This document shows positions 8,683 to 24,065 of a DNA stretch of 64,000 nt, in pieces (positions within the stretch are counted from its first letter, which is position 1; every line of letters starts with the position of its first letter). The DNA comes from Actinomycetales bacterium. GTDB lineage: Bacteria; Actinomycetota; Actinomycetes; Actinomycetales; Cellulomonadaceae. The notes below the pieces were generated by a model. The model had not been told where the DNA came from, ran no database searches, and was given only the letters and a program-made list of their open reading frames with translations. A program made the translations under genes and the position numbers. The DNA is taken from contig JAHLLI010000006.1 in assembly GCA_020444245.1 (NCBI GenBank), forward strand, positions 124,001 to 188,000, given 5' to 3'.

Positions 8683-8832
8683 CGAAGAATTCGTACGCAC
8701 GAACTTCCGAAGAATGCCGGTGCGAAGAATGCGGGTCGCGCCCGTCGAAGCGATTGCTGGTCAGCTGTATCGCTCTGACCTGCGACGACGTGATCCAGCG
8801 AGCGATACTCCGGGGAGTGGAAGGCATTCTTG
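8683..8832. promoter_or_regulatory. repeated CGAAGAATKC motif in the regulator/ATPase divergent region
   Basis: CGAAGAATTC at 8683-8692, CGAAGAATGC at 8708-8717 and again at 8723-8732, and the same core inverted (GGCATTCTTG) at 8823-8832. The first copy runs into TTCGT-ACGC-ACGAA (8690-8703), an inverted repeat. Four copies within 150 bases between a metal repressor and a metal ATPase suggest regulator binding sites (inference). Confidence 0.5.
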
Positions 8833-8861
8833 GACACCCATTTCGGCGCTACCATGGAGAC

Positions 8862-11159
8862 ATGCTGAATGCCCTCCGTCGCCACCACGAGATGATCGTG
8901 CTCACCCTCTCGGTGATCCTGCTCGGGGGCGGCGGTGTGGCGTGGTGGACGGGCGCCGCGGACCTCGCCGACGGGCTGTGGGTCGCCGGGACCGTGCTCG
9001 GCCTGGTGTTCGCCCTGCTCGCCATGGGCGAGGCCCTGCGTGACCGCCGTCCGACGGTCGACGTCATCGCGGTCCTGGCGCTGGCCGGGGCGCTGTGGGT
9101 GGGCGAACCGCTCGCGGGCGCGATCATCACGGCGATGCTCGCCACCGGGCAGCTGCTCGAGGAGCGCGCCGCCGCCCGGGCGCGCCGCGAGCTGAGTCTG
9201 CTCACCGCTCGTGCTCCGCGCCGGGCGCGACGCCTGACCCCGGACGGGTTGGTCGAGGTCCCGGTCGAGGAGATCGAGATCGGTGAGCACCTCGTGGTCG
9301 CCAGCGGCGAGGTCGTCCCCGTCGACGGACGCCTGGTGGCGGCCGGCACGTTCGACGAGGCCGCGCTCACCGGAGAGCCGGTGCCGGTCGAGCGACCCGC
9401 GGGCGACGACGTGCGCTCGGGCGTGGTCAACGCCGGGCCCCCCGTCGAGCTCGTCACCACGACCACGGCGGAGACCTCCACCTACGCCGCGCTCGTCCGG
9501 CTGGTCGCCGAGGCTCAGGCGATCTCCGCGCCGTTCGTCAGGGTCGCCGACCGGTGGGCCGTCGCCTTCGTGCCCCTGACTCTCGTGCTCGCGGGCGCCG
9601 CCTGGTGGGCGGCGGGCGACCCGGTCCGGGCGGTCGCCGTCCTGGTGGTGGCGACCCCGTGCCCGCTGCTGCTCGCGGCGCCGATCGCGATCGTCTCCGG
9701 CCTGTCGCGTGCCGCGCGGCTGGGCGTCATCGTGAAGGGCGGCGGCGCACTGGAGCGCCTCGCCGGCGGCCGCGTCGTGATGTTCGACAAGACCGGCACG
9801 CTGACCCGGGGCCGCCCGACCCTGACGGAGGTCCTCACCACAGGCTCGGCCGACGCCGACGACGCCCTGCGCCTCGCCGCCAGCGTCGACCAGGTCTCCG
9901 TGCACGTGCTGGCCGGCCCGATCGTCGAGGCAGCCCTCGCCCGCGGCCTCGAGCTCGACGTGCCCTCCGCGGTGGAAGAGGTCCCCGGCCAGGGCGTCAT
10001 CGGGACCGTCGGCGGCGTGGCCGTGCGCGTCGGCCGGCCCGACTGGATCACCGGTCCGCACCCGGACCGCTGGGCGCGCCAGGTGCGCCGGCGTGCGGAC
10101 CTCGACGGCTCGATGAGCGTGCTCGTCGAGATCGACGGCACCCCCGCGGCAGCTCTCCTGCTGCAGGACCCGATCCGCCCGGATGCGCCGCGCATGGTGC
10201 GGGCCCTGCGGGCGGCCGGCGTCGAGCGGGTCGTGCTCGCCACCGGAGACCGCTCCGACGTCGCGGACGTGGTCGGCCGGATCGTCGGGGTCGACACCGT
10301 GCTGGCGGACTGCGAGCCGGCCGACAAGCTCGCGGCCCTCGGGCGCGAGGCGAGGCGCGGGCCCACCGTGATGGTCGGTGACGGGATCAACGACGCGCCC
10401 GCGCTGGCGGCAGCCGACGTCGGAGTCGCGCTCGCCGCACGCGGTGCGACCGCGTCGTCCGAGGCCGCGGACGTCGTGCTCACCGTCGACCGCATCGACG
10501 CGCTCGCGGACGCGATGCTGGTCGCCCGGCGGTCGCGCCGGATCGCTCTGGAGGCGGTGGCCCTCGGCATGGGGCTCTCCCTGGTCGCGATGGTGGCCGC
10601 GGCGCTCGGCTGGCTGGCGCCCGCCGTCGGCGCTGCGCTCCAGGAGGTCATCGACCTGCTCGCGATCGCCGTCGCCCTGCGCGCGGTGCTGCCCACCCGC
10701 CTGCACACCGTCGAGCTGCCTGAGGACGCCCGTCGCACGCTCGCCGCGCTGCACGCCCAGCACGACGACCTCGCCCCCCTGGTCGAGCGCGTTGCGGGGG
10801 TCGCCGACGGGCTGTCCACCGAGGCGCCGGACCTCACCGACGCCCGGGCGCTCCTCGACGCGCTCGAGGGCGATCTCCTTCCGCACGAGCGGGCGGACGA
10901 GGAGCTCCTGCTGCCACTCGTCGCCCGCGCCCTGGGCAGCCACGAGGCGGTCGCCGCCCTCAGCCGCACCCACGCCGAGATCGAGCACCAGGTGACGCGG
11001 CTCCGCCGTCTGCTGGACTCGGTGGCCGTCGACGACATCGAGACGGAGGACGTCGTGGAGCTCCGCCGCATGCTGTACGGGCTCTACGCCGTGCTCAAGC
11101 TGCACAACGCGCAGGAGGACGAGGGCGCCTTCAGCCTCGCGCCCGCCCACGCGGGGTAG
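8862..11159 (+). CDS. P1B-5-type heavy-metal P-type ATPase with C-terminal hemerythrin domain
   Basis: A 765-aa metal-exporting ATPase. It has no N-terminal HMA domain. The TM6 metal motif is TPC (residues 265-267, ATPCPLLLAAP), the phosphorylated Asp is D309 in DKTGT, TGES-type actuator residues appear as LTGEPVP, and GDGINDAPAL marks the hinge. Residues about 625-765 form a hemerythrin-like bundle with HDD, LLPHERADEE, HAEIEHQ and LHNAQEDE ligand-type motifs. TPC plus hemerythrin defines the P1B-5 group, reported to handle Ni and Fe. Start at ATG 8862, weak ribosome site; ATG 8892 is an alternative. Sits opposite an MntR-like regulator. Confidence 0.92.
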   Translation: MLNALRRHHEMIVLTLSVILLGGGGVAWWTGAADLADGLWVAGTVLGLVFALLAMGEALRDRRPTVDVIAVLALAGALWVGEPLAGAIITAMLATGQLLEERAAARARRELSLLTARAPRRARRLTPDGLVEVPVEEIEIGEHLVVASGEVVPVDGRLVAAGTFDEAALTGEPVPVERPAGDDVRSGVVNAGPPVELVTTTTAETSTYAALVRLVAEAQAISAPFVRVADRWAVAFVPLTLVLAGAAWWAAGDPVRAVAVLVVATPCPLLLAAPIAIVSGLSRAARLGVIVKGGGALERLAGGRVVMFDKTGTLTRGRPTLTEVLTTGSADADDALRLAASVDQVSVHVLAGPIVEAALARGLELDVPSAVEEVPGQGVIGTVGGVAVRVGRPDWITGPHPDRWARQVRRRADLDGSMSVLVEIDGTPAAALLLQDPIRPDAPRMVRALRAAGVERVVLATGDRSDVADVVGRIVGVDTVLADCEPADKLAALGREARRGPTVMVGDGINDAPALAAADVGVALAARGATASSEAADVVLTVDRIDALADAMLVARRSRRIALEAVALGMGLSLVAMVAAALGWLAPAVGAALQEVIDLLAIAVALRAVLPTRLHTVELPEDARRTLAALHAQHDDLAPLVERVAGVADGLSTEAPDLTDARALLDALEGDLLPHERADEELLLPLVARALGSHEAVAALSRTHAEIEHQVTRLRRLLDSVAVDDIETEDVVELRRMLYGLYAVLKLHNAQEDEGAFSLAPAHAG

Positions 11160-12263
11160 CTACGGCCCCATAGCCACGACGGCGTCGCCGACCCGAAGCA
11201 CGACGCCCGCCGTCGTCGTGCCCGCGTAGGTCGCGTCGCCGACGTCCACCGACCAGAGCTCGGCGCCGCTGACCAGGTCACGTGCGGTGACGCGATCTCC
11301 GCCGGAGACGGGTTCGAGGAGTCCTGCGGCGATCCCGTCGGAGAAGGCCGCGCTCGCCGCCGTGCGCCACAGCTCGACCCCGTCCGACGCCCGGTGCGCG
11401 GTCACCTCGCCGGTACCCGTCACGATGACGCCTTCCACCACCAGGTGTGCGGGCCCTGGGTAGTGCCGCAGCCCGGCGACCACCACCTCCGTGCCGTCGG
11501 TGATCACCGGGACCGTGCTCGAGCCGTCGTTGGGCCCGAGCATGGACCTCCACGCCGGAAGTGCGACGGCGTCGGACGGAGTCGCGATCGTCCGACCGGT
11601 GGACAGGTCCACCACGGCGTCCCCGACCCGCAGCCAGGTGCGCTCGCGCTCCAGCTCTGCTGCGGCGGGCGCCTCGCCCTGCCAGGTCCAGCTCGCGCCA
11701 CGGTGCCCCGGCGGCACCCAGCGCCTCACGGTGACCGTGCCGGCCTGCACCGCGACCGTCACGACATCACCGTCGACCACCCACCAGTCGACGAGCCCCG
11801 GCGGCGCGTCCAGCTGTGCGCGCAGGCCTCCGTCCGGAGCGACCGCCGTCGCCACGCCGTCCGCCGTGGGCGCCGTCAAGCACACCGCGCCCTCGCCGGA
11901 GGCAGCGCAGGTGGCGCCTGCGGCGACCGGGCCCCAGAGGGGATCTCCCTCGGGGGTCAGCGCCCTCACCCCGGTGCCGTCCGGCCTCGAGACCAGCACC
12001 GTGGCGCCGACCGAGATCACGTCGCCCCCCGTCCGCCAGATCTCGGCCCAGGGCGCCGCGAGGGACGCCGTGGCACCCAGCAACCTCGGTGCCGGTGTGA
12101 GATCGGTCGGTCGCGGGTCCGGGCCGCTGACGGCGCGCCCGGCCACTACGAGCCCGCCCACCACGACCACCGCGGCGATGACCGCCAGGTAGCGACCCAG
12201 GCGCGGCGGGGGAGGGCCTTGCGGCTCGTCCTCGACCTGGACCTCGACGAGATCGGGCTCCAT
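11160..12263 (-). CDS. membrane-anchored PQQ-like beta-propeller protein (paralogue A)
   Basis: A 367-aa protein with a cytoplasmic N-terminus (rich in Glu and Pro), one membrane helix near residues 26-46 (RYLAVIAAVVVVGGLVVAG) and an extracytoplasmic domain of PQQ-like repeats (LTPEGDPLWGPV, HRASDGVELWRTA, LVSGAELWSVDVGDA). It shares the SLAAPW, PDGTG and WGPV landmarks with the protein at 22932-24065. Its stop lies immediately after that of the ATPase, tail to tail. No enzyme motif; such propellers usually serve as scaffolds or sensors. Confidence 0.8.
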   Translation of the reverse strand: MEPDLVEVQVEDEPQGPPPPRLGRYLAVIAAVVVVGGLVVAGRAVSGPDPRPTDLTPAPRLLGATASLAAPWAEIWRTGGDVISVGATVLVSRPDGTGVRALTPEGDPLWGPVAAGATCAASGEGAVCLTAPTADGVATAVAPDGGLRAQLDAPPGLVDWWVVDGDVVTVAVQAGTVTVRRWVPPGHRGASWTWQGEAPAAAELERERTWLRVGDAVVDLSTGRTIATPSDAVALPAWRSMLGPNDGSSTVPVITDGTEVVVAGLRHYPGPAHLVVEGVIVTGTGEVTAHRASDGVELWRTAASAAFSDGIAAGLLEPVSGGDRVTARDLVSGAELWSVDVGDATYAGTTTAGVVLRVGDAVVAMGP

Positions 12264-12375: not shown

Positions 12376-13890
12376 TCACCGACTCACGAGGAAGCGCATG
12401 CCGAACGTCCCGCCGCTCCGGCCCGGGTAGCACCAGAGCTGGGCGTCGGCGTCCTCCCCGAGCAGGTCGTTGAGACCGTCCCCGGTGAGGTCGGCGCCGC
12501 TGAACAGGGTCACGGTGTTCCACCCGTGCCCGACCTTCTGGCGCATCGCGAAGTACCCGTCGCCCCGGCCGGCGTAGAACCACAGCCCGCCGTCCGCGTC
12601 CACTCCGAGGATGTCCGCGCGTCCGTCCCCGTTCATGTCGCCGGCGGACTGCAGGTCGAACGTGGACCAGCCGTTGCCCACCTTGACACGATTGCCGAAC
12701 CGGCCCGCTCCCGCACCGGGGTACAGCCAGAGGTCGCCGCGGTTGTCGATCGCGAGCAGGTCGGCGCGATGGTCCCCGGTCAGGTCGCCGGTCGGCACGA
12801 TGCGGAATGGCCCCCAGCCCCAGCCGATCCGCGTCCGCGAGCCGAGGTGGGCGTTGCCCTGACCCGGGTAGAGGTAGAGGTCGCCGTAGACGTCTGTCGC
12901 GAGCACGTCGTTGAGCCCGTCCCCGTCCCAGTCGCCGGGACCGTAGAGGGCGAGATCACGCCAGCCGGTGCCCTGGAGGTAGGTCGCCACGGATCGGCCC
13001 GGGAAGTACGGGTCTGCGCGCGTGACGAAGCCGAGGGCGAGGTGACCTGAGCTGTAGGTCACCAGGATGGTCCCTCGTCCCCAGTCGATCAGGGGTCCTG
13101 ATCCCCAACCGATCAGGTCTGGTGACAGTGCGATGCGCTCCCAGTTCCCGGCGAGGGGTGCCTTCGGCCGCAGGTTCTCCAGGTACCACGAAGCGGAGAC
13201 TTCGTCGGTGCGTCCGGACGCCCGCGTTCGCACGCGGTACTCGGCGCTGTCCGGCGCCCCTAGCGCCATGATCTCGAGGTCGCACCCTCCCGAGGCTGCC
13301 CCCGTCCTCCACGCCAGCGCCGCCTTGTGCCAGATGTCCTCTCCTGCGATGTGGTAGTCGATGTACGTGGCCGGGCAACGGCCGGTTCCGGGCTCGGGTG
13401 GGATCAACGCGAGGAACGGGGCCGCTCCGCCGGGCTCCGCGCTGGGGGCGGCCGTCTCGGGTCTGGTGAGTGTGAGCGTCTCCGCGTCGGACGGTGGCAC
13501 GGTCACCGTGAGGGTGCGCTTCGCGCCGGGGTGGTTCGGCCAATGGTTGAGGAGCAACGTGACCACATGCTTGCCGGGTCGGGCTCCGAGGCTGGCCGTG
13601 TAGGTGTACCTCGGGAGGCGCTCGGGCGTGAGGTACGAGTCACCCTTGTTCGGGATCACCAGGGGTCCGTCATCGAGCGCGAGCAGGGTCGTCAGGACCT
13701 GCGCGTCCGTCGTGTAGGACACCGTCACGTCGATCCGGCGCGGGCTGACCACGGCGCTGAGTGAGATGTCGGTCGCCGTAGCCTTCACGATCGTGGGTGC
13801 GGCGGCAGGCTCTTGCGCCTGGGCGGTACCGATCCCCACCACGAGCAAGGCCAGCGCTGCGCTGACCGCGAAGAACTGTCGTCGTCTCAC
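12376..13890 (-). CDS. secreted FG-GAP repeat protein with beta-rich N-terminal domains
   Basis: A 504-aa exported protein. Start at GTG 13890, with AGGGGG six bases upstream; signal peptide RRRQFFAVSAALALLVVGIG, cleavage near AQAQ. Residues about 30-270 are beta-rich, with Cys in GRCPATY and GGCDLEI that may pair. The C-terminal part carries FG-GAP-like blades, each with a DxDGD calcium-type loop and a WLYPGxGxG end (GDWDGDGLNDVLATD, GDLTGDHRADLLAID, GDMNGDGRADILGVD, GADLTGDGLNDLLGED). The same module occurs in the next four genes. A short inverted repeat (GGTGAG/CTCACC, 12365-12380) overlaps the stop. Confidence 0.85.
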   Translation of the reverse strand: MRRRQFFAVSAALALLVVGIGTAQAQEPAAAPTIVKATATDISLSAVVSPRRIDVTVSYTTDAQVLTTLLALDDGPLVIPNKGDSYLTPERLPRYTYTASLGARPGKHVVTLLLNHWPNHPGAKRTLTVTVPPSDAETLTLTRPETAAPSAEPGGAAPFLALIPPEPGTGRCPATYIDYHIAGEDIWHKAALAWRTGAASGGCDLEIMALGAPDSAEYRVRTRASGRTDEVSASWYLENLRPKAPLAGNWERIALSPDLIGWGSGPLIDWGRGTILVTYSSGHLALGFVTRADPYFPGRSVATYLQGTGWRDLALYGPGDWDGDGLNDVLATDVYGDLYLYPGQGNAHLGSRTRIGWGWGPFRIVPTGDLTGDHRADLLAIDNRGDLWLYPGAGAGRFGNRVKVGNGWSTFDLQSAGDMNGDGRADILGVDADGGLWFYAGRGDGYFAMRQKVGHGWNTVTLFSGADLTGDGLNDLLGEDADAQLWCYPGRSGGTFGMRFLVSR

Positions 13891-13961
13891 GTCGATCCCC
13901 CTGGTTTGCCTCGGCCGCAGCATGCCAGAAACGCGACGCCCGGAGGGGCGTTTCGCGCCGG

Positions 13962-15320
13962 CTACAGCCACCGTGCAGCGACCGCGCGAAGCTCCGACCC
14001 GAGGGGCCAGAGGTTCTGCCGGCACCCGCCCAGCGAGATCGACTGCTGCATCATCACGGGTGCTGGCGTACCGACCGCCGGGCACCCGGCGTGCCCGAGG
14101 CCGAGGTAGTGGCCGACCTCGTGGATCACGACGTAGTGCTGGTAGTCGCTGCGGCTGAAGGACGCGAACGTCGGGGTCGCGTAGCGCCACCGGACGTCGT
14201 TGATGAACACCCCGGTGCCCACCCGGCAGGAGTAGGCGGAGCTGCACACGGATCCGGCGGCGTTCACCGCCGCCGGAGAGGCCAGGTAGACGTGCATCAT
14301 GCCGCCGGACGCCACCCTGTCGAACCTGATCGCCCCGCCCATCGACCATCCCCGCGGGTCTGCGAGGGTCCAGGCCACGTGCCGCGCGAACTGCCCGAGG
14401 TCCCCGCCGACGGCGCCGAGCGTGGAGACCGTGTAGGTGATGACGCGTCGGGGCACCTGGGTGGGCTCGTTGAGCAGCAGCGGGTCCCAGCCGACGCCGA
14501 CCTTCGTGAACGGGGCGGTGAACGCACCGGTGCCGGAGCCGGGGTAGAGCCACAGGTCGCCGCCGGGCAGGCGGCCCAGGAGGTCCGGCGCTCCGTCGCC
14601 GGAGAAGTCTCCGGGGCCGAGCAACGCGGTGAAGCGGGTCCACCCGGCGCCGATCACGCGCCAGGACCGGAAGCCGCCCGTGCCGTTGCCGGAGTACAGC
14701 CACAGGGTGCCGTCCGTCACCGACCGGGCGACGAGGTCGTTCGCGCCGTCACCGTCCCAGTCGCCCACCGGGGTGACCAGGTCCCGCGAGGCCCAGCCCG
14801 CGCCGATCTTCCGCGGTCTGTCGAAGCCGCCGGAGCCCGTGCCGGGGTAGAGCCACATGGAGGTGTCGTCGCGCAGGATCCCGATGAGGTCGGCGTCTCC
14901 GTCGCCGTCCCAGTCGCCTGGGGCGAGGACGTCGCTGAACGCCGACCACCCGACGCCGATCCGGCGCCAGCCGGAGAACCCCCCGGTGCCGTTGCCGCTG
15001 TAGAGCCACAGCCCGCCCGAGAGGTCACGTGCGACGACGTCGGCGTTGCCGTCGCCGTCGAGGTCCCCGGCGATTCGGACCTCGTCGAGGGTGCGCCAGC
15101 CGACGCCGATCTGCCGCGCCCGGCCCCAGCCTCCCGCGCCGTTGCCGGGGTAGAGCCAGAGCGACCCGTTCTGGGCGATGGCGACGACGTCCGCGTTGCC
15201 GTCGCCGTCGAGGTCGCGGGAGTCGGCGGCGGGCCTCGGGACCTCCGCGGGCGCAGCCGCGGTTGCCGTCGTGGGGATGAAGAGAACGAGGCCGAGGACG
15301 ACGGCGAGCGCGGCGCGCAT
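13962..15320 (-). CDS. secreted FG-GAP repeat protein with C-terminal DUF3152 metalloprotease domain
   Basis: A 452-aa exported protein, ATG with CAGGAG four bases upstream, signal peptide AALAVVLGLVLFIPTTATA. Six FG-GAP-like blades occupy about residues 30-270, the reverse order to its neighbours. The C-terminal DUF3152 domain has LADPRGW, paired Cys (SVCSSAYSCRVG), FINDVRWRYA and the zinc motif HEVGHYLGLGH at 400-410 (HExxHxxGxxH), followed by a methionine (APVMMQQ) that could be the Met-turn. Predicted zinc endopeptidase; substrate unknown. Divergent from the M15-like gene. Confidence 0.88.
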   Translation of the reverse strand: MRAALAVVLGLVLFIPTTATAAAPAEVPRPAADSRDLDGDGNADVVAIAQNGSLWLYPGNGAGGWGRARQIGVGWRTLDEVRIAGDLDGDGNADVVARDLSGGLWLYSGNGTGGFSGWRRIGVGWSAFSDVLAPGDWDGDGDADLIGILRDDTSMWLYPGTGSGGFDRPRKIGAGWASRDLVTPVGDWDGDGANDLVARSVTDGTLWLYSGNGTGGFRSWRVIGAGWTRFTALLGPGDFSGDGAPDLLGRLPGGDLWLYPGSGTGAFTAPFTKVGVGWDPLLLNEPTQVPRRVITYTVSTLGAVGGDLGQFARHVAWTLADPRGWSMGGAIRFDRVASGGMMHVYLASPAAVNAAGSVCSSAYSCRVGTGVFINDVRWRYATPTFASFSRSDYQHYVVIHEVGHYLGLGHAGCPAVGTPAPVMMQQSISLGGCRQNLWPLGSELRAVAARWL

Positions 15321-15459
15321 GGGGCTCCTGGGGGTGAGTGCGACGACCCTATCGTCGCCGCACGTCACGGCGTCGTGGTTCCGGGCTCAAGCCGATCACC
15401 CGAACGGCCGATGCAGCAATGGTCGGTTGCGGCCACGACACGTCGATCGAGGACCAGGT

Positions 15460-17319
15460 GTGACTTCTCAGGCAGCATGCGCCGGGTGGCGCGTCAACGG
15501 GCGGCGGGCCCTGAGCACCGCCGTGACCGTCGGACTTCTCATCGTCGGAGTGGTACCCGTGGCGGCTGCGGCCGATCCGGTGCCCGAGCCGGCCACGACC
15601 GCCGACCCTGCGGCGGAGCCCACGCTCGAGCCGACGCCCGCGGCAGAGCCGACCCCCACGCCCACGCCCGAGCCGAGTGCGACACCCGAGCCGACGGACA
15701 CGCCGACCCCCACCCCCACCGCTTCGCCCGCGCCCACGACCGCACCGACGTCGCTGGCAGCCGCGACGACCGCGGTGTCACCCGCGATCGTCATCAAGGC
15801 GCCCCCGACCAAGGTGCTGCCGGCCCTCGTCGACGCCATGCCGGGCTTCCAGCCCTCCACGTCGTGCGACCCGAACGACAAGCCGGGCATCCTCGCGTTC
15901 GCGGAGCTCATCAGCACCAACTGGGGCATGTATCGCTATCACACGTCGCGCCCGTGCGTCCTCGGTGACGGCACCCAGCACGCCGAGGGGCGTGCGCTCG
16001 ACTGGACGATGAACGCCTACGACCCGACTCAGAAGGCGCTCGGCGACGCCGTCGTCGCCTGGCTCACCGCCGACTCCGGCACGATGGCCCGGCGCTTCGG
16101 GATCATGTACGTCATCTGGAACCGGCAGATCTGGTACGCGTGGCACCCGGACACCTGGCAGGCGTACGACGGCCCAGTCCCGCACACCGATCACATCCAC
16201 TTCAGCTTCACGTGGGACGGCGCGATGATGCGCACCTCGTGGTGGACCGGTGTCCCGGTCTCCGTCTCCGACCAGGGCACCTGCCGGGTCTACGACGGCC
16301 AGTACGCCCCGCGCTACACCGCCAAGCGCACGACGCCGTGCCCGACCAGCCTGCCGGCGGCTCCGTTCAGCGCGTTCCCGGTGACCCTGCCGGGCGCCAC
16401 GGGTAGCGCCGTCGCCATGGCCCAGTCACTGATGGGCATGAGCGGGGCGGACGTCGACGGCGACTTCGGGCCGGCCACGCTCGCCGTCCTGCTGGCCTAC
16501 CAGGCCGCGCACGACGTCCCGGTCACCGGTGTGCTGGACAACGCCACCTGGGCCAAGCTGGTGGCCAACATGCCGGTGCCCCCGTTCGACCAGGTCGTGG
16601 CGGCGCCGGACGCGACGGGCGACGGCTACGCGGACGTCGTCGTGGTGGACGCCTCGGGCCGGCTGCACATCTTCCCCGGTGAGCCGGGCGCCAAGCTCGG
16701 GCCGGTGCGCGTGTTCGGAACCGGCTGGGGTGACATGACGGTCTACGCCCCGGGAGACTGGAACGGCGACCGGATCGGGGACCTCGTGACCGTCGACCCG
16801 GCCGGCGACCTGTGGCTGTACGCCGGCAACGGCGCGGGCGGCTTCCCGCGACGCACCAAGATCGGCAACGGGTGGTCCGGGTACCGCATCACGCCGTCGG
16901 GCGACATGAACGGTGACGGGGTCAACGACCTGCTCGCCATCGACCCGCGCGGCGACCTGTGGCTGTACCCGGGTGCGGGCGCCGGCAGGTTCGGCAAGCC
17001 CGTCAAGGTCGGCAACGGCTGGTCGGACTTCCAGCTGTACGCCGCGGGCGACCAGAACCTCGACGGCCGTCGCGACATCCTCGGCATCGACTCGCACGGC
17101 GACCTGTGGTTCTACGCGGGCCGCGGGAAGGGCTACTTCAGCCAGCGCGTCAAGGTCGGCAACGGCTGGAACGGCTACCAGTTCGCCTCGGGCGGGGACT
17201 TCAACCGGGACGGTGTCGCCGACCTGATCGGCAAGGATCCCGAGGGCACCGTCTGGTACTACGCGGGGCGTGCGGGTGGCGGGTTCGCGATGCGCACCCA
17301 GCTCGCGACGGGCTGGTGA
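15460..17319 (+). CDS. secreted M15/VanY-like peptidase with peptidoglycan-binding domain and FG-GAP repeats
   Basis: A 619-aa exported protein starting GTG with GAGG upstream. After the signal peptide comes a Pro/Thr/Glu-rich linker (PTPTPEP type, residues 45-95). The next domain has HAEGRALD (H174, D181) and HTDHIHF (H242, D244, H245, H247), the zinc-ligand layout of M15/VanY-like D,D-carboxypeptidases. Residues about 308-370 are a PG_binding_1 domain (VDGDFGPATLAVLLAYQ). The rest, from about 375, is a five-blade FG-GAP module. Likely acts on, and binds, cell-wall peptidoglycan. Only plus-strand member of the island. Confidence 0.88.
   Translation: MTSQAACAGWRVNGRRALSTAVTVGLLIVGVVPVAAAADPVPEPATTADPAAEPTLEPTPAAEPTPTPTPEPSATPEPTDTPTPTPTASPAPTTAPTSLAAATTAVSPAIVIKAPPTKVLPALVDAMPGFQPSTSCDPNDKPGILAFAELISTNWGMYRYHTSRPCVLGDGTQHAEGRALDWTMNAYDPTQKALGDAVVAWLTADSGTMARRFGIMYVIWNRQIWYAWHPDTWQAYDGPVPHTDHIHFSFTWDGAMMRTSWWTGVPVSVSDQGTCRVYDGQYAPRYTAKRTTPCPTSLPAAPFSAFPVTLPGATGSAVAMAQSLMGMSGADVDGDFGPATLAVLLAYQAAHDVPVTGVLDNATWAKLVANMPVPPFDQVVAAPDATGDGYADVVVVDASGRLHIFPGEPGAKLGPVRVFGTGWGDMTVYAPGDWNGDRIGDLVTVDPAGDLWLYAGNGAGGFPRRTKIGNGWSGYRITPSGDMNGDGVNDLLAIDPRGDLWLYPGAGAGRFGKPVKVGNGWSDFQLYAAGDQNLDGRRDILGIDSHGDLWFYAGRGKGYFSQRVKVGNGWNGYQFASGGDFNRDGVADLIGKDPEGTVWYYAGRAGGGFAMRTQLATGW
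16954..17024 (+). repeat. 71-bp inverted repeat, left copy
   Basis: This stretch, coding for one FG-GAP blade, recurs in opposite orientation at 17639-17709 with a single mismatch (t here, c there, 21st base). The similarity is at DNA level over 71 bases, far beyond that of other blade pairs. Confidence 0.9.
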
Positions 17320-17343
17320 CCGCTCACCGCCGTCGCTGACCGC

Positions 17344-18825
17344 TCACCACTGGCTGGCGAGCAGTACACGCTGCGCGAAGGACCCACCGACTCTGCCGGG
17401 GTAGAGCCACAGCTTCCCGTCCGGCGCGCGGCCGGTGAGATCGCCGAGGCCGTCCCCGTTCAGGTCCGCCCCGGAGGCGAACTGGTACGTGCCCCAGCCG
17501 TTGCCGACCTGGCGGCGCGTCGCGAAGTACCCGCCCCCGCGCCCCGCGTAGAACCAGAGCTTGCCCGCCTGGTCGATCCCGAGGATGTCCGGACGGCCGT
17601 CGCGCGTCATGTCGCCTGCGGCGTAGAGCTGGACGCCCGACCAGCCGTTGCCGACCTTGACGGGCTTGCCGAACCTGCCGGCGCCCGCGCCCGGGTACAG
17701 CCACAGGTCTCCCTTGGGGTCGATGGCCAGCAGGTCGGCTTGGTGGTCGCCGTTGAGATCGCCCGCGGGCACCACCCGGTAGCCGGTCCAGCCGTTGCCC
17801 ACGAGGACGCGTGCGCCGAAGTGGCCGTGCCCGTTGCCGGGGTACAGCCACAGCCGCCCCGCCGTGTCACGGGCGAGCAGGTCGTTGCGTCCGTCTCCGT
17901 TCCAGTCCCCGGGGCCGTACACCGTGAGCGTCGCCCAGCCGGGGCCCACGGGGATGGCGAGGGGAGGTTGGCTCGGGCCGGTCACCTGGAGCAGCACGAG
18001 GCTGCCGGTCTGGTCGACGCCGACGATCGTGCCGCGGCCGGGGTGGAAGCCGCCCGAGCCGCCCGCGAGGTCGGGGGACAGGGTCATCTGCTTGAGCCAA
18101 CCCATCGGCGGCGTCGGATCCGTGGTCGGGAGCCGAACGGAAGGCGTGTAGCCGGGGGCGTGGTCCGGGGCCGTGAGTCGCAGACGATAGTCGGCGGTGC
18201 TGCCCGCGGACTCCACGAGGAGCCCCACGTCGCAGGCGCCGAGGCCCACCGCATTGGTGAGGAAGGTGGTCGCGGTGTGCCAGGTGGCCGTGCCGACTGG
18301 TCGGTACTCGATGGCCGCCGTCGGGCAGATCGCGTGGTAGCCGAGCTCGTACACCTGCTGGATCTTCGCGATGAAGTACAGATCGGCGCCAGGCGGGGCC
18401 CACGTGATGTCGTTGACGAGGCGGACCGTCGCGGGCGGCATCGCGCGGGGCGGAACGTCGACCTCGAGATCGACCGCGGTCGTGGCGCTGCCCACCGCTG
18501 TGTACGAGATCTCGACCGTGTGGTGACCCGCGTGCGCCGCGACCCACAGGTGGAAGTCCCAGGTCTTGGTGCCGTCCGAGTTCGACACCGGACCGCTGTC
18601 GACCCAGACGCTCACCGGTGTGCCACCGTCGACCGACATGACGACCATCGGGGCCGAGAATCCCATGAGGGTGATGGTGCCGAGACCTCCGACCTGGAGG
18701 TCGCCCGGTACCGCGACGGCAGCGATCTCGACGGGCGGCGGAGGCGGGGGGTCGTCGGCGACCGCCGGCCCAGCGCCGGCGACGAGGGACAGCACAGCCA
18801 CGACGAGAGCGACGACGCGACGCAC
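17344..18825 (-). CDS. secreted FG-GAP repeat protein with beta-rich N-terminal domains
   Basis: A 493-aa exported protein. Start at GTG 18825, with AAGGAG five bases upstream; signal peptide RRVVALVVAVLSLVAG ending near AVADD, then a run of prolines. Residues about 35-260 are Ig-like or beta-sandwich (VPGDLQVGGLGTITLMG), with Cys in AICPTAA and GACDVGL at positions matching the 12376-13890 protein. The C-terminal module of five blades begins at LKQMTLSPDL. No catalytic motif; possibly an adhesin or structural surface protein. Convergent with the M15-like gene, 24 bases apart. Confidence 0.83.
   Translation of the reverse strand: MRRVVALVVAVLSLVAGAGPAVADDPPPPPPVEIAAVAVPGDLQVGGLGTITLMGFSAPMVVMSVDGGTPVSVWVDSGPVSNSDGTKTWDFHLWVAAHAGHHTVEISYTAVGSATTAVDLEVDVPPRAMPPATVRLVNDITWAPPGADLYFIAKIQQVYELGYHAICPTAAIEYRPVGTATWHTATTFLTNAVGLGACDVGLLVESAGSTADYRLRLTAPDHAPGYTPSVRLPTTDPTPPMGWLKQMTLSPDLAGGSGGFHPGRGTIVGVDQTGSLVLLQVTGPSQPPLAIPVGPGWATLTVYGPGDWNGDGRNDLLARDTAGRLWLYPGNGHGHFGARVLVGNGWTGYRVVPAGDLNGDHQADLLAIDPKGDLWLYPGAGAGRFGKPVKVGNGWSGVQLYAAGDMTRDGRPDILGIDQAGKLWFYAGRGGGYFATRRQVGNGWGTYQFASGADLNGDGLGDLTGRAPDGKLWLYPGRVGGSFAQRVLLASQW
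17639..17709 (-). repeat. 71-bp inverted repeat, right copy
   Basis: Reverse-complement partner of 16954-17024, 70 of 71 bases identical, inside the third blade of the convergent FG-GAP gene. The two copies face each other across the gene junction at 17320-17343, so recombination between them would invert about 600 bases. Confidence 0.9.
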
Positions 18826-18909
18826 GGCAACTCCTTGACGAAGCGCCGCCCCCCTGGCTGCGCGAGCGAGATTCTGGCACCACAGAGCCACTCGGGGAAG
18901 ATCCACGCC

Positions 18910-18928
18910 GCGCCCGTCACCCGGGCGC
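18910..18928 (-). terminator. short hairpin downstream of the subtilisin gene
   Basis: GCGCCCG-TCACC-CGGGCGC, a 7-bp perfect stem with a 5-base loop, 15 bases after the stop of the subtilisin gene on the minus strand. Plausible intrinsic terminator without a U-run. Confidence 0.5.
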
Positions 18929-18942
18929 TCAGGTGATCTGCG

Positions 18943-21900
18943 TCACCACCCGGTGCCGATCTGGACTCGCATGAGGAACCCGCCCGCGACCTTGCCGCGG
19001 TACAGCCAGAGCCGGTGCTGGGCGTCGCGCCCGACCAGGTCCCCGATCCCGTCGCCGGTCAGGTCCGCGCCACTGGCGAACTCGAAGCCGTTCCAGCCGT
19101 TGCCGACCTGCACGCGCTGCCAGAAGTAGCCCCCGCCCCGGCCGGCGTAGTACCAGAGCTTGCCTGCCGGGTCGATGCCGAGGATGTCGACCTTGCCGTC
19201 GAGGTTCTGGTCACCGGCTGCGTACAGCTCGAAGTCGGACCACCCGTTGCCGACCTGGATCGGCTTGCCGAACTTGCCCGCACCGGCTCCGGGGTACAGC
19301 CACAGGTACCCCTTCGGGTCGATCGCTAGCAGGTCCGCGCGGCCGTCGCCGTTCACGTCCCCGGCCGGCACGACGCGGTAGCCCGTCCACCCGTTGCCGA
19401 TCTTGCTGGGTGCACCGAACCCGCCCCGGCCGTTGCCGGGGTAGAGCCACAGGTCACCGGTCGTGGTCCGCGCGATGAGGTCGTTGCGACCGTCGGTGTT
19501 CCAGTCACCGGGTGCGTAGACCGTCAACGGGGCCCAGCCCGGACCGCTCAGGGCGAGCGAGCCGACGCGTGCGTTGGCCGTCGTGTAGACCTTGAGGTTC
19601 CCGGCGATGTCGACGCCGACGATGTCCCCGGTGCCGTCTCCCGTGAGATCGGGGGAGAGGGTGAGCTGGCTCATCCACGCAGCGCTCCCGGACGTCCTGA
19701 CGTCGACCACCGCAGGGGTCCCGGCGTCGAGCTCGGAGATCGGGGTGAGCCGGATCCGGTAGGCGGTGCCGGGGAGCAGGCCGTCGACCGTCGTGCGCCG
19801 GCCGTCGGCGCCGACGAGGGCCTCGGGCACCCATTGCGAGCCGTACAGCACCTCGACCAGGTAGCCGGTGACCTGCTCGGGGAACGAGGACGGGGCAGTC
19901 CACGTGAGCGTCGCGTGATCCTCGCCGGCGGTGGCGGAGAGCCGTGGCCCACCGGGCAGCCCGGGAGTCGTGATGTCGAGGCGGGCCCAGTCGCCGGGGA
20001 TCGTGTCGGCGACCGCCGCTACTCGCACGGCCACGGACTCGCCGGGGCCGAGGTTCGCGAACGTCGTCGATCGCCTGCTGGGTGAGAAGTCGTACTCCTG
20101 GCTGGCGGGCTCGTACGCGGACCAGTACCGCCACGTCGAGCCGCCGTCGTCCGAGCGCTGCACCGTGTACGAGCGGAGGGTGCCCGCGTACGTGGCCGGC
20201 GGCTGCCACGTGATGATCGCGCCGTGGGTCGTCGCGACGGCAGCGAGGTCCGTCGGGGCCTGCGGAGCGGCGGCGGTGGTGAACGAGAACGGTGTCCACA
20301 GCCCCCCGCCGGCCGTGCATCGAGCCTGGTAGGTCGTCGCAGGCTGGAGGGTGTCGAAGGCCCCTGGCGACGTCACGGTGCCGAAGGAGGAGTCGTACCA
20401 GACGCCGCCGGACGACTGGAGTCCGCACGTGACGGAGGAAGCGATGTCGCTCGACGTCTCGGGGCTCGCCATCATGAGCGACGCGCTGGTCATCGAGGCC
20501 GTCACCAGTGGCTCGGGAAGCGCACTCGGGGAGGGGGCAGTGCGGATGGCGAACGTCGCCCACACCCCGGCCGTCGCGCCCTCGAGCGCGGTGACCCGGA
20601 CCTGGTAGTCCGTCGCAGGCGTGAGACTGATCACCGTCGCCTGCGCACGCCACGTCTCGGAATGGACCCAGGTCGCGCCATCGGTCGAGAGCTCGACGGC
20701 GTAGCCGGCTGCGTAGCCGTCCGGGGCGGTCCACGCCAGGTCAGCATCCCCTGTCCGGACGCTCGCGCGCAGCCCGGTAGGTCGGTCGCGAACGTCTGAC
20801 GCTGTCGCGGCGAACGCCGTGGTGCTCGTGAGGCCGGGCGCCGTGTCCGTGAGCGCCGTGGCGCGCACCTGGTAGACGGTGTCCGCGTCGAGGCCATCGA
20901 GAGTGGCGGTGAGCGTCGTGGCGTCTGTCGTCGCGGGCGAGGTCCACGTCACGCCGTCCGTCGACAGATCGATCCGATACCCGGTGACTCCGGCCCGCGC
21001 TGCCGGCGGAGCCCACGTCACGGCCAGCGACGTCGTCGAGGACGCACTCGCCGCCAGGGAGAGCGGTGCGGACGGCCGCGGCTCGGTCACCGCCGTCTGC
21101 GTGGCGTGGGCACCGGTGCCGGCGTCACTCGTGGCGCTGACCCGGAACAGGTAGCGGTGGAACGGGTCGAGGCCCGTCACCGTGGCGGACCGAGTCGCAG
21201 AGCCGGTCGCTGCTGCGGGCTGCCACGTCGCACCCCCGTCGGCCGAGGTCTCGACGACGTACCCGTTCACCCCTGCGGCGAGGGTTGCCGGTGGCTCCCA
21301 GGTCACGTCTGCAGTCGTGACCAGGGGCGCGACGGCGAGTGCCGTGGGCGCTGTCGGCAGGAGCGTCGGCGACGTCCGCGCCACGAGCGTGTCGCTGGTC
21401 GGGCCGTAGCCGCCGAGCGTGCTTCCGGTGACCGAGATCTCGTAGTCGGTGTCCGGCAGGAGGCTCGAGAGCACGGCGCTCGAGGTGCGGCTGGTGGTGC
21501 CGGACCACTCCGTGGTGCCGGCGGGCCGCCACTCGACGTAGTAGCGGGTGGCGGGGAAGGAGGTCGGCCCGGTCCACGCGAGGGAGAGCGTGGTCGCGGT
21601 CGACGTCGTCGTCCTGAGGGCCGTCGCAGCGGCGATCGGCGCATGGATGACCAAGGACTTCACGAGCCAGTCCGTGACGCCCGGCGCGGGATCGTCGATC
21701 GGCGTCGTTCCCAGCATCGCCGCCTCGAAGTCGCCCGCGGTGGTGTTCGGCCGCTCGGCGAGGTAGATGGCAGCGATACCCGCCACGTGTGGTGCCGCGA
21801 ACGAGGTGCCGTCGACGACGACCGCCCTCTGTGCATCGAGGGCGTCCAGCGACGTGATCGACACGCCGGGGGCGACCACGTCGAGGCACGGACCCCAGTT

Positions 21901-22785
21901 CGAGAACGCCGCGAGCTTGTCGTCGGGCGTCGATGCCCCCACGGTGATTCCCGTCACGCTCGCGGCGGGCGAGGCGGTGCAGGCGTCGGCGCCGTCGTTG
22001 CCGGCGGCGACCACGACCAGCAAACCGCGGGCGGTGAGGAGGTCGACCGCGTGGTCGATCACGTCGTTCTGCGGGCCGGCCAGAGAGACGTTGACCACAC
22101 CGCGCGTGCCGGCCGGGTGGTGGGCGGCGATCCAGTCAAGTCCGTCGAGCAGGTCGGCCGCTGAGCCTTTGCCTGTGCAGCCGAGCACGCGGACGGGCAC
22201 GACAGTGGCGCGCTTGGCGACCCCGTAGACGCTCGACGCGGCCACGCCGGCGACCGCCGTGCCATGTCCGTTGCAGTCCGACGTGCCTAGCCCGTCGGCG
22301 ACGCCGCTGTATCCCGAGGCCAGGCGCGTGCCGAACGACGGGTGCGGCGACACTCCGGTGTCCACCACGTACACGGGCACCCCGGCCCCGGCGAGGTCGT
22401 CGTAGGAGTAGCTCCCGTCCAGCGGCAGCGACGGCTGGTCGATGCGGTCCAGCCCCCACGACGGGGGTGGCGCCTGGACGTCGGTCGTGGTGATCGGGGT
22501 GTCCGGGACGACCCGGGTGGCGTCGCCTGAGCGGGCGAGCGCGGCGGCCTGGGAGCTCGTCAGATCGACGGCCACCCCGTCCAGGACGTCGTCGTAGACC
22601 TCGTCCGGCGTGGCGCCGATGTCGTCGAGGGTCGCGCTGAGGTCGTCGAGTGCGCCCGGCGCGGCCTGGACGATGTAGCTCTCGGTCGACTCCGGCCGGG
22701 GCGTCTCGGCCGCGGCGGCACTGCCCGGTGCGGCAACTGCCAGGGCAAGCGCAACGACCCCGGCGCGCGCGAGAGGCAGGGACAT
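18943..22785 (-). CDS. secreted S8 (subtilisin) protease with fibronectin III and FG-GAP repeats
   Basis: A 1280-aa exported protease. Signal peptide to about residue 26 (SAAAAE), I9-type prodomain about 34-95, then the S8 catalytic domain with D142 (YVVDTGV), H174 (NGHGTAVAG), N263 (AAGNDG) and S328 (DGTSFAAPHVAG). Seven fibronectin III-like domains follow from about 390 to 1030, the fifth divergent and Cys-containing. The C-terminal 240 residues are the FG-GAP module beginning at MSQLTLSPDL. The ribosome site is GGAGAGG. Likely an active extracellular endopeptidase; the accessory domains probably mediate surface or substrate binding. Confidence 0.93.
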   Translation of the reverse strand: MSLPLARAGVVALALAVAAPGSAAAAETPRPESTESYIVQAAPGALDDLSATLDDIGATPDEVYDDVLDGVAVDLTSSQAAALARSGDATRVVPDTPITTTDVQAPPPSWGLDRIDQPSLPLDGSYSYDDLAGAGVPVYVVDTGVSPHPSFGTRLASGYSGVADGLGTSDCNGHGTAVAGVAASSVYGVAKRATVVPVRVLGCTGKGSAADLLDGLDWIAAHHPAGTRGVVNVSLAGPQNDVIDHAVDLLTARGLLVVVAAGNDGADACTASPAASVTGITVGASTPDDKLAAFSNWGPCLDVVAPGVSITSLDALDAQRAVVVDGTSFAAPHVAGIAAIYLAERPNTTAGDFEAAMLGTTPIDDPAPGVTDWLVKSLVIHAPIAAATALRTTTSTATTLSLAWTGPTSFPATRYYVEWRPAGTTEWSGTTSRTSSAVLSSLLPDTDYEISVTGSTLGGYGPTSDTLVARTSPTLLPTAPTALAVAPLVTTADVTWEPPATLAAGVNGYVVETSADGGATWQPAAATGSATRSATVTGLDPFHRYLFRVSATSDAGTGAHATQTAVTEPRPSAPLSLAASASSTTSLAVTWAPPAARAGVTGYRIDLSTDGVTWTSPATTDATTLTATLDGLDADTVYQVRATALTDTAPGLTSTTAFAATASDVRDRPTGLRASVRTGDADLAWTAPDGYAAGYAVELSTDGATWVHSETWRAQATVISLTPATDYQVRVTALEGATAGVWATFAIRTAPSPSALPEPLVTASMTSASLMMASPETSSDIASSVTCGLQSSGGVWYDSSFGTVTSPGAFDTLQPATTYQARCTAGGGLWTPFSFTTAAAPQAPTDLAAVATTHGAIITWQPPATYAGTLRSYTVQRSDDGGSTWRYWSAYEPASQEYDFSPSRRSTTFANLGPGESVAVRVAAVADTIPGDWARLDITTPGLPGGPRLSATAGEDHATLTWTAPSSFPEQVTGYLVEVLYGSQWVPEALVGADGRRTTVDGLLPGTAYRIRLTPISELDAGTPAVVDVRTSGSAAWMSQLTLSPDLTGDGTGDIVGVDIAGNLKVYTTANARVGSLALSGPGWAPLTVYAPGDWNTDGRNDLIARTTTGDLWLYPGNGRGGFGAPSKIGNGWTGYRVVPAGDVNGDGRADLLAIDPKGYLWLYPGAGAGKFGKPIQVGNGWSDFELYAAGDQNLDGKVDILGIDPAGKLWYYAGRGGGYFWQRVQVGNGWNGFEFASGADLTGDGIGDLVGRDAQHRLWLYRGKVAGGFLMRVQIGTGW

Positions 22786-22931: not shown

Positions 22932-24065
22932 TCACGGGGTGAGGAACGTGGTCACTGCGCCGTCGGCGACGGCGACGCCGTCCGCGTTCCGACCCACGTA
23001 CGTGCCCGCCACCGGGACGCGCCACACCACCGCGCCGTCGCGCACCCGCCGCGCGGTGAGCCCGCCGTCGCCGACCACCGCGACGAGGTCTCCGTCGGAG
23101 AACGCCCCGTCGCCCGGAGCGCTCCACAGCTCGGCCCCGTCGCGGGCGTCGAGGGCGGTCACGCCGCCGGCGACCACGACGCCGCTCACCAGGGCCCAGA
23201 GCGGCCCGGCCACCCGCCAGCTGCTCCGGCCGTCGACGGCACCCACCACGTCCTGACCGTCGAGGGCCACCCGCAGCCCGGGCACGGACCGGTCCCGGAC
23301 CACGAAGGTCGCCCGGGCGAAGTCCGCCGGTGCGCGGACCGACGCCTTGGAGCTGACCTCTTGCCCGGTCGCGAGGTCCAGCAGGACCGCGCGCGTCCCG
23401 CCGATCAGGAGCCACCCGTCGCCCTGCCCGATCGAGAACGGGTACGAGACGGGTGCCACCACCGCGTCGGAGCTCCGGTAGCGCCACACGAACCCCTCGG
23501 GCGCCCAACGGTCCACGACGAGGTGCCCCTGCTCCTGCGCGACCGCGATGAGGGTCCCGTCCAGGAACCACCACGAGCTCAGTGCGCCCGTGGGACGGTA
23601 GGTGGCGCTGACGCGGCCCGACTCGTCGAGCGCCACGGCCTCCTGCCGGTCGCCGCCGGTGGTGACCGTCCCGGCCGAGCCGGTCGCACTGATGGTGCGG
23701 CACAGCACGGCCCCCGACGCCGGTGCGCACGGGCTGCCCTCCCGGACGGGGCCCCAGACCACGGTGCCCGACGCGTCCCTGGCGACCGCGCCGGTGCCGT
23801 CCGGCCCGGAGAGCACGACGGAGTGCCGGTAGACCGCGAGCACCGGGCCGGGATCCGTCCACGCCGTGTGCCAGGGTGCCGCGAGGGACGGGGACACGTC
23901 CACGCCGGCGAGCCGCGCGGCTCGGGCCGCGGACGCGTGGCCCTGTGCCAGGACCGCGATCGCGACCAGGCCCGCGCCGAGCGCGGCCCACCAGGTCGGG
24001 TGGGATCGTCGTGCGCGCGACGGCTCGGTGGGGATCTCCACCTCGAGGTCGTCGCGTTCGCGCAC
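22932..24065 (-). CDS. membrane-anchored PQQ-like beta-propeller protein (paralogue B)
   Basis: A 377-aa paralogue of the 11160-12263 protein: charged cytoplasmic start, one membrane helix (TWWAALGAGLVAIAVLAQG, about 24-43) and an extracytoplasmic propeller with SLAAPW, PDGTG, WGPV and repeated W-x-V or D-GAxLW blades (LDARDGAELWSAPG, RVRDGAVVWRVPV). Start at GTG 24065. Lies on the other flank of the FG-GAP island from paralogue A, same strand. Function not known. Confidence 0.8.
   Translation of the reverse strand: MRERDDLEVEIPTEPSRARRSHPTWWAALGAGLVAIAVLAQGHASAARAARLAGVDVSPSLAAPWHTAWTDPGPVLAVYRHSVVLSGPDGTGAVARDASGTVVWGPVREGSPCAPASGAVLCRTISATGSAGTVTTGGDRQEAVALDESGRVSATYRPTGALSSWWFLDGTLIAVAQEQGHLVVDRWAPEGFVWRYRSSDAVVAPVSYPFSIGQGDGWLLIGGTRAVLLDLATGQEVSSKASVRAPADFARATFVVRDRSVPGLRVALDGQDVVGAVDGRSSWRVAGPLWALVSGVVVAGGVTALDARDGAELWSAPGDGAFSDGDLVAVVGDGGLTARRVRDGAVVWRVPVAGTYVGRNADGVAVADGAVTTFLTP

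Follow-up and report, generated by a model that had tools for sequence, protein, structure and literature searches.

The window analysed here is a stretch of 64,000 nucleotides from a high-GC actinobacterium (Actinomycetales bacterium, Cellulomonadaceae; assembly GCA_020444245.1, contig JAHLLI010000006.1, positions 124,001 to 188,000), and its subject is an island of 10.7 kb with five adjacent genes, named A to E, each of which encodes a protein with a β-propeller (Table 1). Gene C is divergent from B and convergent with D. All five genes look real: the GC content at third codon positions was 0.88–0.94, and signal-peptide-like N-termini, judged by eye, predict that the products are exported, as a first-pass annotation of the same DNA had proposed. 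The long open reading frames (ORFs) of A, B, C and D extend too far at the 5′ end and the probable starts differ (A, about 13923 or 13890; B, 15320; C, 15460 or 15493; D, 18825). A scan for promoters and terminators revealed one weak promoter-like match and no terminators.

The partners fused to the propellers are diverse. B contains a DUF3152 zincin with the motif HEVGHYLGLGH and E an S8 protease with D/H/S motifs, six fibronectin type III (fn3) domains found by Pfam and a weak I9 match under the cut-off; both assignments had been made before and were borne out. PG_binding_1 was likewise recovered by Pfam in C, but the M15/VanY-like peptidase proposed for the same protein had no Pfam match and is named from the motifs HAEGRALD and HTDHIH. 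The N-terminal regions of A and D, described earlier as Cys-containing, are 24% identical and each have a Cys pair; their structure model reached a predicted local distance difference test (pLDDT) value of 51.9. A, C, D and E end at the propeller and have no sorting signal: the sole LPxT[GA] pattern occurs in the interior of E, and the C-terminal LPxTG, hydrophobic helix and basic tail of sortase substrates were not found.

Table 1 Genes of the island and its two flanks (positions in the window)
Feature	Position	Strand	Predicted content
Gene A	12376..13923	-	Signal peptide, Cys-containing beta region, C-terminal five-blade propeller (module 12379-13134)
Gene B	13962..15320	-	Signal peptide, N-terminal five-blade propeller of other subfamily (about 14490-15233), C-terminal DUF3152 zincin (about 14031-14414)
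Gene C	15460..17319	+	Signal peptide, Pro/Thr linker, M15-like domain, PG_binding_1 (about 16447-16560), C-terminal propeller (16591-17316)
Gene D	17344..18825	-	Signal peptide, Cys-containing beta region, C-terminal propeller (17347-18087)
Gene E	18943..22785	-	Signal peptide, S8 protease (about 21703-22389), six fn3, C-terminal propeller (18946-19665)
PQQ_2-like gene, flank	11160..12263	-	Pfam match just under cut-off
PQQ_2-like paralogue, other flank	22932..24065	-	Pfam match just under cut-off

The propeller module and its partners

FG-GAP_3 (PF13517) matched all five proteins with E-values of 1.5e-17 to 2e-29 (64–102 bits, curated cut-off 26.9), and at such values the matches are not due to chance. 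Cutting at the GxGW motif gave five blades per propeller, with the aspartate-rich AB loop and the GW motif between blades that mark VCBS actinolectins and tachylectin-like lectins. The earlier view that one module is built into all five proteins held at the level of this family, but the common C-terminal module is present in A, C, D and E only. The propeller of B is N-terminal and clusters with Arthrobacter-type propellers in a tree (support 99/92).

Among A, C, D and E, identities were highest in blade 3 (67–86%, mean 77%) and blade 4 (61–80%, mean 70%), followed by blade 2 (47–73%, mean 58%) and blade 1 (28–43%, mean 36%). Blade 5 amounted to a mean of 50% over the four proteins and 47–53% among A, D and E; the last blade of C was missed by the cutting pattern and was taken in by the module alignment instead. 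The last four blades had been described as the most alike, which is true of blades 3 and 4 and less so of blades 2 and 5. Since the blades match position by position, the modules arose by duplication of the whole domain and not of single blades. In a tree of 44 modules, 22 of them labelled, 12 changes were counted by genome and 9 by partner, with differing numbers of states; on the labelled rows fresh fusion and homogenisation were not separated, but the lineages as a whole were.

The module of D was modelled by AlphaFold2 from a 35-module alignment with a pLDDT of 92.6, and a Foldseek search of the PDB gave UmbA4 with bound teichuronic acid, 5c2m (which we take to be tachylectin-2-derived) and N-acetylglucosamine (GlcNAc) lectins as top matches. 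Lectins ranked first in all structure-match lists, with Tc-toxin and KICSTOR propellers after them and integrin alpha chains lower still. This modelling, suggested in the first-pass annotation as a check, thus points to a lectin-like fold.

The source genome (G000) has seven compact modules with E < 1e-90; the island accounts for four of them, and the other three stand singly. The single ones are part of a relative of A (contig C22; the N-terminal regions are 37% identical along 252 residues), a Big_5 + DUF4082 protein (C14) and a CAP protein (C8); longer propeller variants fused to Amidase_2 and SpoIID are encoded on contig C11. C14 has only 3311 bases (locus L017) and is taken up almost entirely by the Big_5/DUF4082-propeller gene and another frame that looks secreted; an assembly break at repeats may be the reason.

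That the module might be generic, scattered and unclustered had been named as a possible objection, which the counts do not bear out. It was found in 4/19 genomes of the genus (E ≤ 1e-30) and in 4/221 of the family (E ≤ 1e-60), and the genes were clustered in two of the latter (G000 and G010). A pattern-seeded search, which may miss distant relatives, gave 124 named relatives, of which 80 loci were kept. Within these 80, the nearest were the Actinomycetales metagenome-assembled genome (MAG) AS06rmzACSIP_387, which belongs to the genus of the window, and MAGs of Bifidobacteriaceae and Propionibacteriaceae, several with multiple copies. All 80 have actinobacterial titles, judged by name, consistent with a restriction to Actinomycetota.

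The module runs to the C-terminus in 123/127 matching ORFs, a count in which some are included twice from overlapping loci and a few stop at contig edges. Adjacent module genes recur, three in L030 (G010), L039 and L043 and two in L041, L045 and L049, and the partner types CAP, S8 and SpoIID recur in distant lineages. The idea of a surface chassis with several activities is in line with these data; a role in secretion is not, given the ordinary-looking signal peptides, and a reading of the propeller as a secretion tag was rejected on the same N-termini. In the wider relatives (L054–L113; 71 of 77 ORFs scanned, the six omitted including three in L109, which overlaps L098) partners were sparse: GH25 and Trypsin in three each and GH3, M23, SpoIID and Amidase_2 in two each. 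Two single observations concern gene order and placement: four propeller-bearing ORFs lie side by side in Streptomyces sp. NRRL F-5727 (L106:6522-16729), and at L051:7818-9719 the propeller is N-terminal to PGA_cap, one of the few placements that are not C-terminal.

Glycan genes near sister propeller genes; DUF4214 arrays on related enzymes

In the source genome, the propeller genes with Amidase_2 and SpoIID on C11 are located among glycosyltransferase genes, and a TagH/TarH-type ATPase gene and an RmlB-like gene (a label of our own) lie within about 16 kb; the latter is 83% identical to a gene of G016, GDP_Man_Dehyd/Epimerase by Pfam. The CAP-propeller gene on C8 has as neighbours genes for an N-acetyltransferase (match to 3mqg, presumably WlbB, 1.7e-40), an aminotransferase (WbpE match 1.6e-69, the top match being a different transaminase), a Gfo/Idh oxidoreductase (generic matches only, best 1.6e-21), an acyltransferase recognised by eye and a nucleoside diphosphate (NDP)-sugar dehydrogenase. 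The last is 76% identical to a dehydrogenase of G010 that itself best matches a UDP-ManNAcA dehydrogenase (3e-65). These genes look like four of the five steps to UDP-ManNAc3NAcA listed for Streptomyces griseus in the available part of PMC13274773, where the sugar is the one bound by UmbA4; the fifth step, an epimerase, was not searched for. The trio of acetyltransferase, aminotransferase and oxidoreductase also flanks propeller genes in Microbacteriaceae (L080), Agromyces (L088) and Cellulosimicrobium (L094) with 56–79% identity, and a Bifidobacteriaceae MAG (L047) has a Wzt 67% identical to that of the source genome near a propeller gene. Linkage of anchor genes to polymer genes, as described for CWB2 anchors (see below), was thus found for sister propeller genes on C8 and C11 and in G010 and G011.

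A second kind of C-terminal module was found on related enzymes. The S8 region of E is closer to the S8 enzymes of relatives within the family (best 47–52%; matches in 30 of 121 genomes, the source genome among them) than to the S8-propeller proteins of Bifidobacteriaceae (31–38% over parts). Of ten fetched loci, seven including the own had an S8 frame by motif (L125, L126 and L129 were unread): besides the own, three carry or enter DUF4214 (L124, L127 and L128, which runs off its locus) and three end at fn3 (L130–L132). M15-like relatives in G014, G009 and G154 (45–49%) have DUF4214 at the end in 3/3, and Pfam confirmed the domain in the three scanned of five A4 arrays. Altogether, 24 DUF4214 ORFs were found in 19 regions of G009, G014 and G016, and 20 were scanned. 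The partners include S8-fn3, M11-like zincins, Amidase_2, Big_5, beta-helix, RCC1 and GmrSD_C, the last being nuclease-like and joined to DUF4214 at L175, L180 (under the Pfam cut-off), L181 and L182 of G009 and G016. By BLAST, the DUF4214 set and the propeller set are 45–46% identical for M15, 49% for S8, 33–37% for Amidase_2, 36–45% for SpoIID, 29–36% for the M11-like proteins and 46% over 177 residues for the Big_5 protein; by these sequence comparisons the enzymes that bear the two modules are homologues. In G016, genes for an M15-like, a Big_5-DUF4214 and a CAP protein are adjacent (L183, G016:C18:66000-72500), a possible counterpart of the island in a DUF4214 genome.

The propeller loci and DUF4214 loci that were examined, in stretches of up to 20 kb around the modules and not in whole genomes, had different types of exporter. 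A Wzm of the G009 type was present in 15/17 DUF4214 loci (57% or more, one being the query; absent from L202 and L206), whereas a propeller-type Wzt at 60% or more was found in 0/17. The propeller-type exporter was present in the three propeller loci that were long enough (G000, the query; G010, 79%; G011, 75%), and the G009-type Wzm was not found in these three, the contig of G013 being too short to judge. Fisher tests gave 0.009 and 0.0009, values which overstate the link, since the query genomes were counted and the genomes are related to each other. That the two modules strictly exclude each other was considered and rejected: with the propeller in 4 and DUF4214 in 36 of 221 family genomes, 0/221 hold both at the cut-offs used, but chance predicts the same for 49% of draws, or 26% when only the genus is counted.

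Predicted role as a wall anchor and rival explanations

We consider it probable, with appreciable doubt, that the module is a five-bladed lectin of the VCBS/tachylectin type which anchors proteins non-covalently to the wall glycopolymer of their own cell. Sugar binding is predicted from the modelled fold and the motif. Each protein would leave the cell by means of its signal peptide, after which the C-terminal propeller would bind the glycopolymer, which is probably teichuronic- or teichoic-acid-like with an amino-uronic acid. The proteins, presumably expressed together, would be retained at the surface: the anchor would hold the protease, the D,D-peptidase-like enzyme and the Ig-like proteins at the wall, where hydrolases and proteases would act, and B would be a zincin partner with a propeller of its own. 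The conserved blades 3 and 4 may form a shared pocket.

More tentatively, we propose that the anchors are exchangeable, the set of secreted wall enzymes in this family ending in either of two unrelated modules, a propeller or a DUF4214 array, according to the export cassette for the glycopolymer. A change of polymer would then change the anchors across the set, and DUF4214 would also be an anchor to a wall glycopolymer; the idea is a plausible one, but we would not bet on it. The proposals supply an anchor and a ligand that can be tested as a pair for actinobacterial wall enzymes without a sorting signal, together with candidate enzymes for making a defined amino-uronic acid; they also suggest a role for arrays of DUF4214 and, possibly, a rule by which the surface enzymes of a host are matched to its wall polymer. 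If they are right, the modules would be readers of wall chemistry.

Several observations argue against the anchor or its exchange. The island itself is not located beside known glycan genes, and a gene of the glycan set was found by BLAST in only 8/80 named loci (L103 weakly, 30%), a frequency for which the control of 96 kb without such genes is too small a yardstick. The DUF4214 locus L202 has an aminotransferase 45% like that of C8. Amidase_2 and SpoIID are fused to the longer form of the propeller, which matches A1 at E 3e-35 to 4e-14, and not to the compact module, and the DUF4214 arrays on the same two enzymes are of a more distant kind (about 1e-32 to 1e-46) than those on S8, M15 and M11 (about 1e-86 or better). 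In G016, the M15-like protein and a CAP homologue (47%) have neither module. Non-lectin propellers, a Tc toxin subunit and KICSTOR, also ranked high in Foldseek (9–15). Finally, the available parts of PMC11062931 and PMC13274773 describe UmbA5, whose propeller has five blades, as targeting other bacteria, so such lectins can be aimed outward.

The last point leads to an explanation which we regard as unlikely, namely that the propellers steer lytic enzymes to the glycopolymers of competitors, as UmbA lectins do. UmbA4 is the closest solved relative, many of the partners are wall hydrolases and Trypsin (PF00089), as in UmbA, occurs in 3/71 wider relatives, but none of the five proteins had a trypsin match, the island modules are alike in blades 3 and 4 and not diversified, and sister genes lie next to glycan genes of the cell itself and accompany its exporter type in the loci examined. 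Membership in an umbrella toxin was rejected on the missing trypsin match (E ≤ 0.1); the profile PF03752 (ALF repeats, UmbC) had no match in the genome and none in control genomes either.

We give little credence to a carbohydrate-binding module that targets plant or host glycans in termite gut and digesters. The nearest named relatives, the MAG AS06rmzACSIP_387 and those of Bifidobacteriaceae and Propionibacteriaceae, are presumably from gut and digester, and glycoside-hydrolase-type fusions exist (GH43 and MGH1-like in L042 and L038, in addition to the GH25 and GH3 proteins of the wider relatives). However, 22/42 singly scanned proteins had protease or wall-type domains and only 2/42 a glycoside hydrolase, and the linkage to glycan export and amino-uronate genes argues against it as well. 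Equally improbable is a protein-protein scaffold, in which the propeller docks the proteins to each other or to a surface protein in the manner of integrin FG-GAP repeats: integrin alpha chains were among the structure matches and blades 3 and 4 could form a docking face, but lectins ranked first and the glycan-gene linkage speaks against it.

The first-pass annotation knew of no described system of this form, which is too strong, since it has near counterparts in the VCBS actinolectins, the UmbA lectins and wall anchors of the CWB2 type. The VCBS actinolectins are likewise secreted actinobacterial propellers that have a GW motif and loops rich in aspartate and belong to a supercluster containing lectins, but in the accessible part of Pereira and Lupas 2021 (PMC8023676) they stand alone or after a TIM barrel and no function had been shown; none of the five island proteins has that architecture, and the partners here are S8, M15-like, zincin, CAP, Amidase_2 and SpoIID domains. 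UmbA of the Streptomyces umbrella particles likewise has a C-terminal propeller lectin, and UmbA4, the best structural match, binds teichuronic acid with ManNAc3NAcA, but as far as the excerpts of PMC11062931 and PMC13274773 go, UmbA has an N-terminal trypsin-like domain which the five proteins lack, UmbA4 has six blades and not five, and UmbA, a component of a toxin particle, recognises other species. In Clostridioides difficile, the CWB2 domain (PF04122) of wall proteins binds the polymer PSII and is likewise one non-covalent anchor on many surface proteins, with varied partners and genes by the polymer locus (PMC5842191, in part); its fold is unrelated, and the end module here varies between related genomes. 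PF04122 had no match in the five proteins by Pfam. The wall module shared by LytB and LytC of Bacillus subtilis consists of CWB2 repeats, different from the propeller, and the LytC amidase belongs to a different amidase family. The pair of LytC amidase and LytB (SpoIID) is, in the available text of PMC8753576, listed with tua/tag genes including the sugar dehydrogenase TuaD. By analogy, CWB2-PSII and LytB/LytC may be taken as precedents for the mode of anchoring. Keyword searches of the open-licence PMC literature gave no account of the present arrangement among the papers listed; new would be the lectin-propeller anchor with this set of partners and its exchange with DUF4214.

Site of the island

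The two PQQ_2-like genes that flank the island are 39% identical to each other. G016 has one PQQ gene at the same site and no island, with neighbours related to those of the window: the P-type ATPase is 86% identical, the PQQ gene 38–44%, the next gene, matched piecewise, 63–85%, and the end of FabF 88% for the 74 residues that lie inside the fetched stretch. The PQQ gene was found in 2/19 genus genomes only, the own and G016, so the empty site was seen once. Near the island, at 8754-11159 of the window, a P-type ATPase with a C-terminal hemerythrin domain is encoded.
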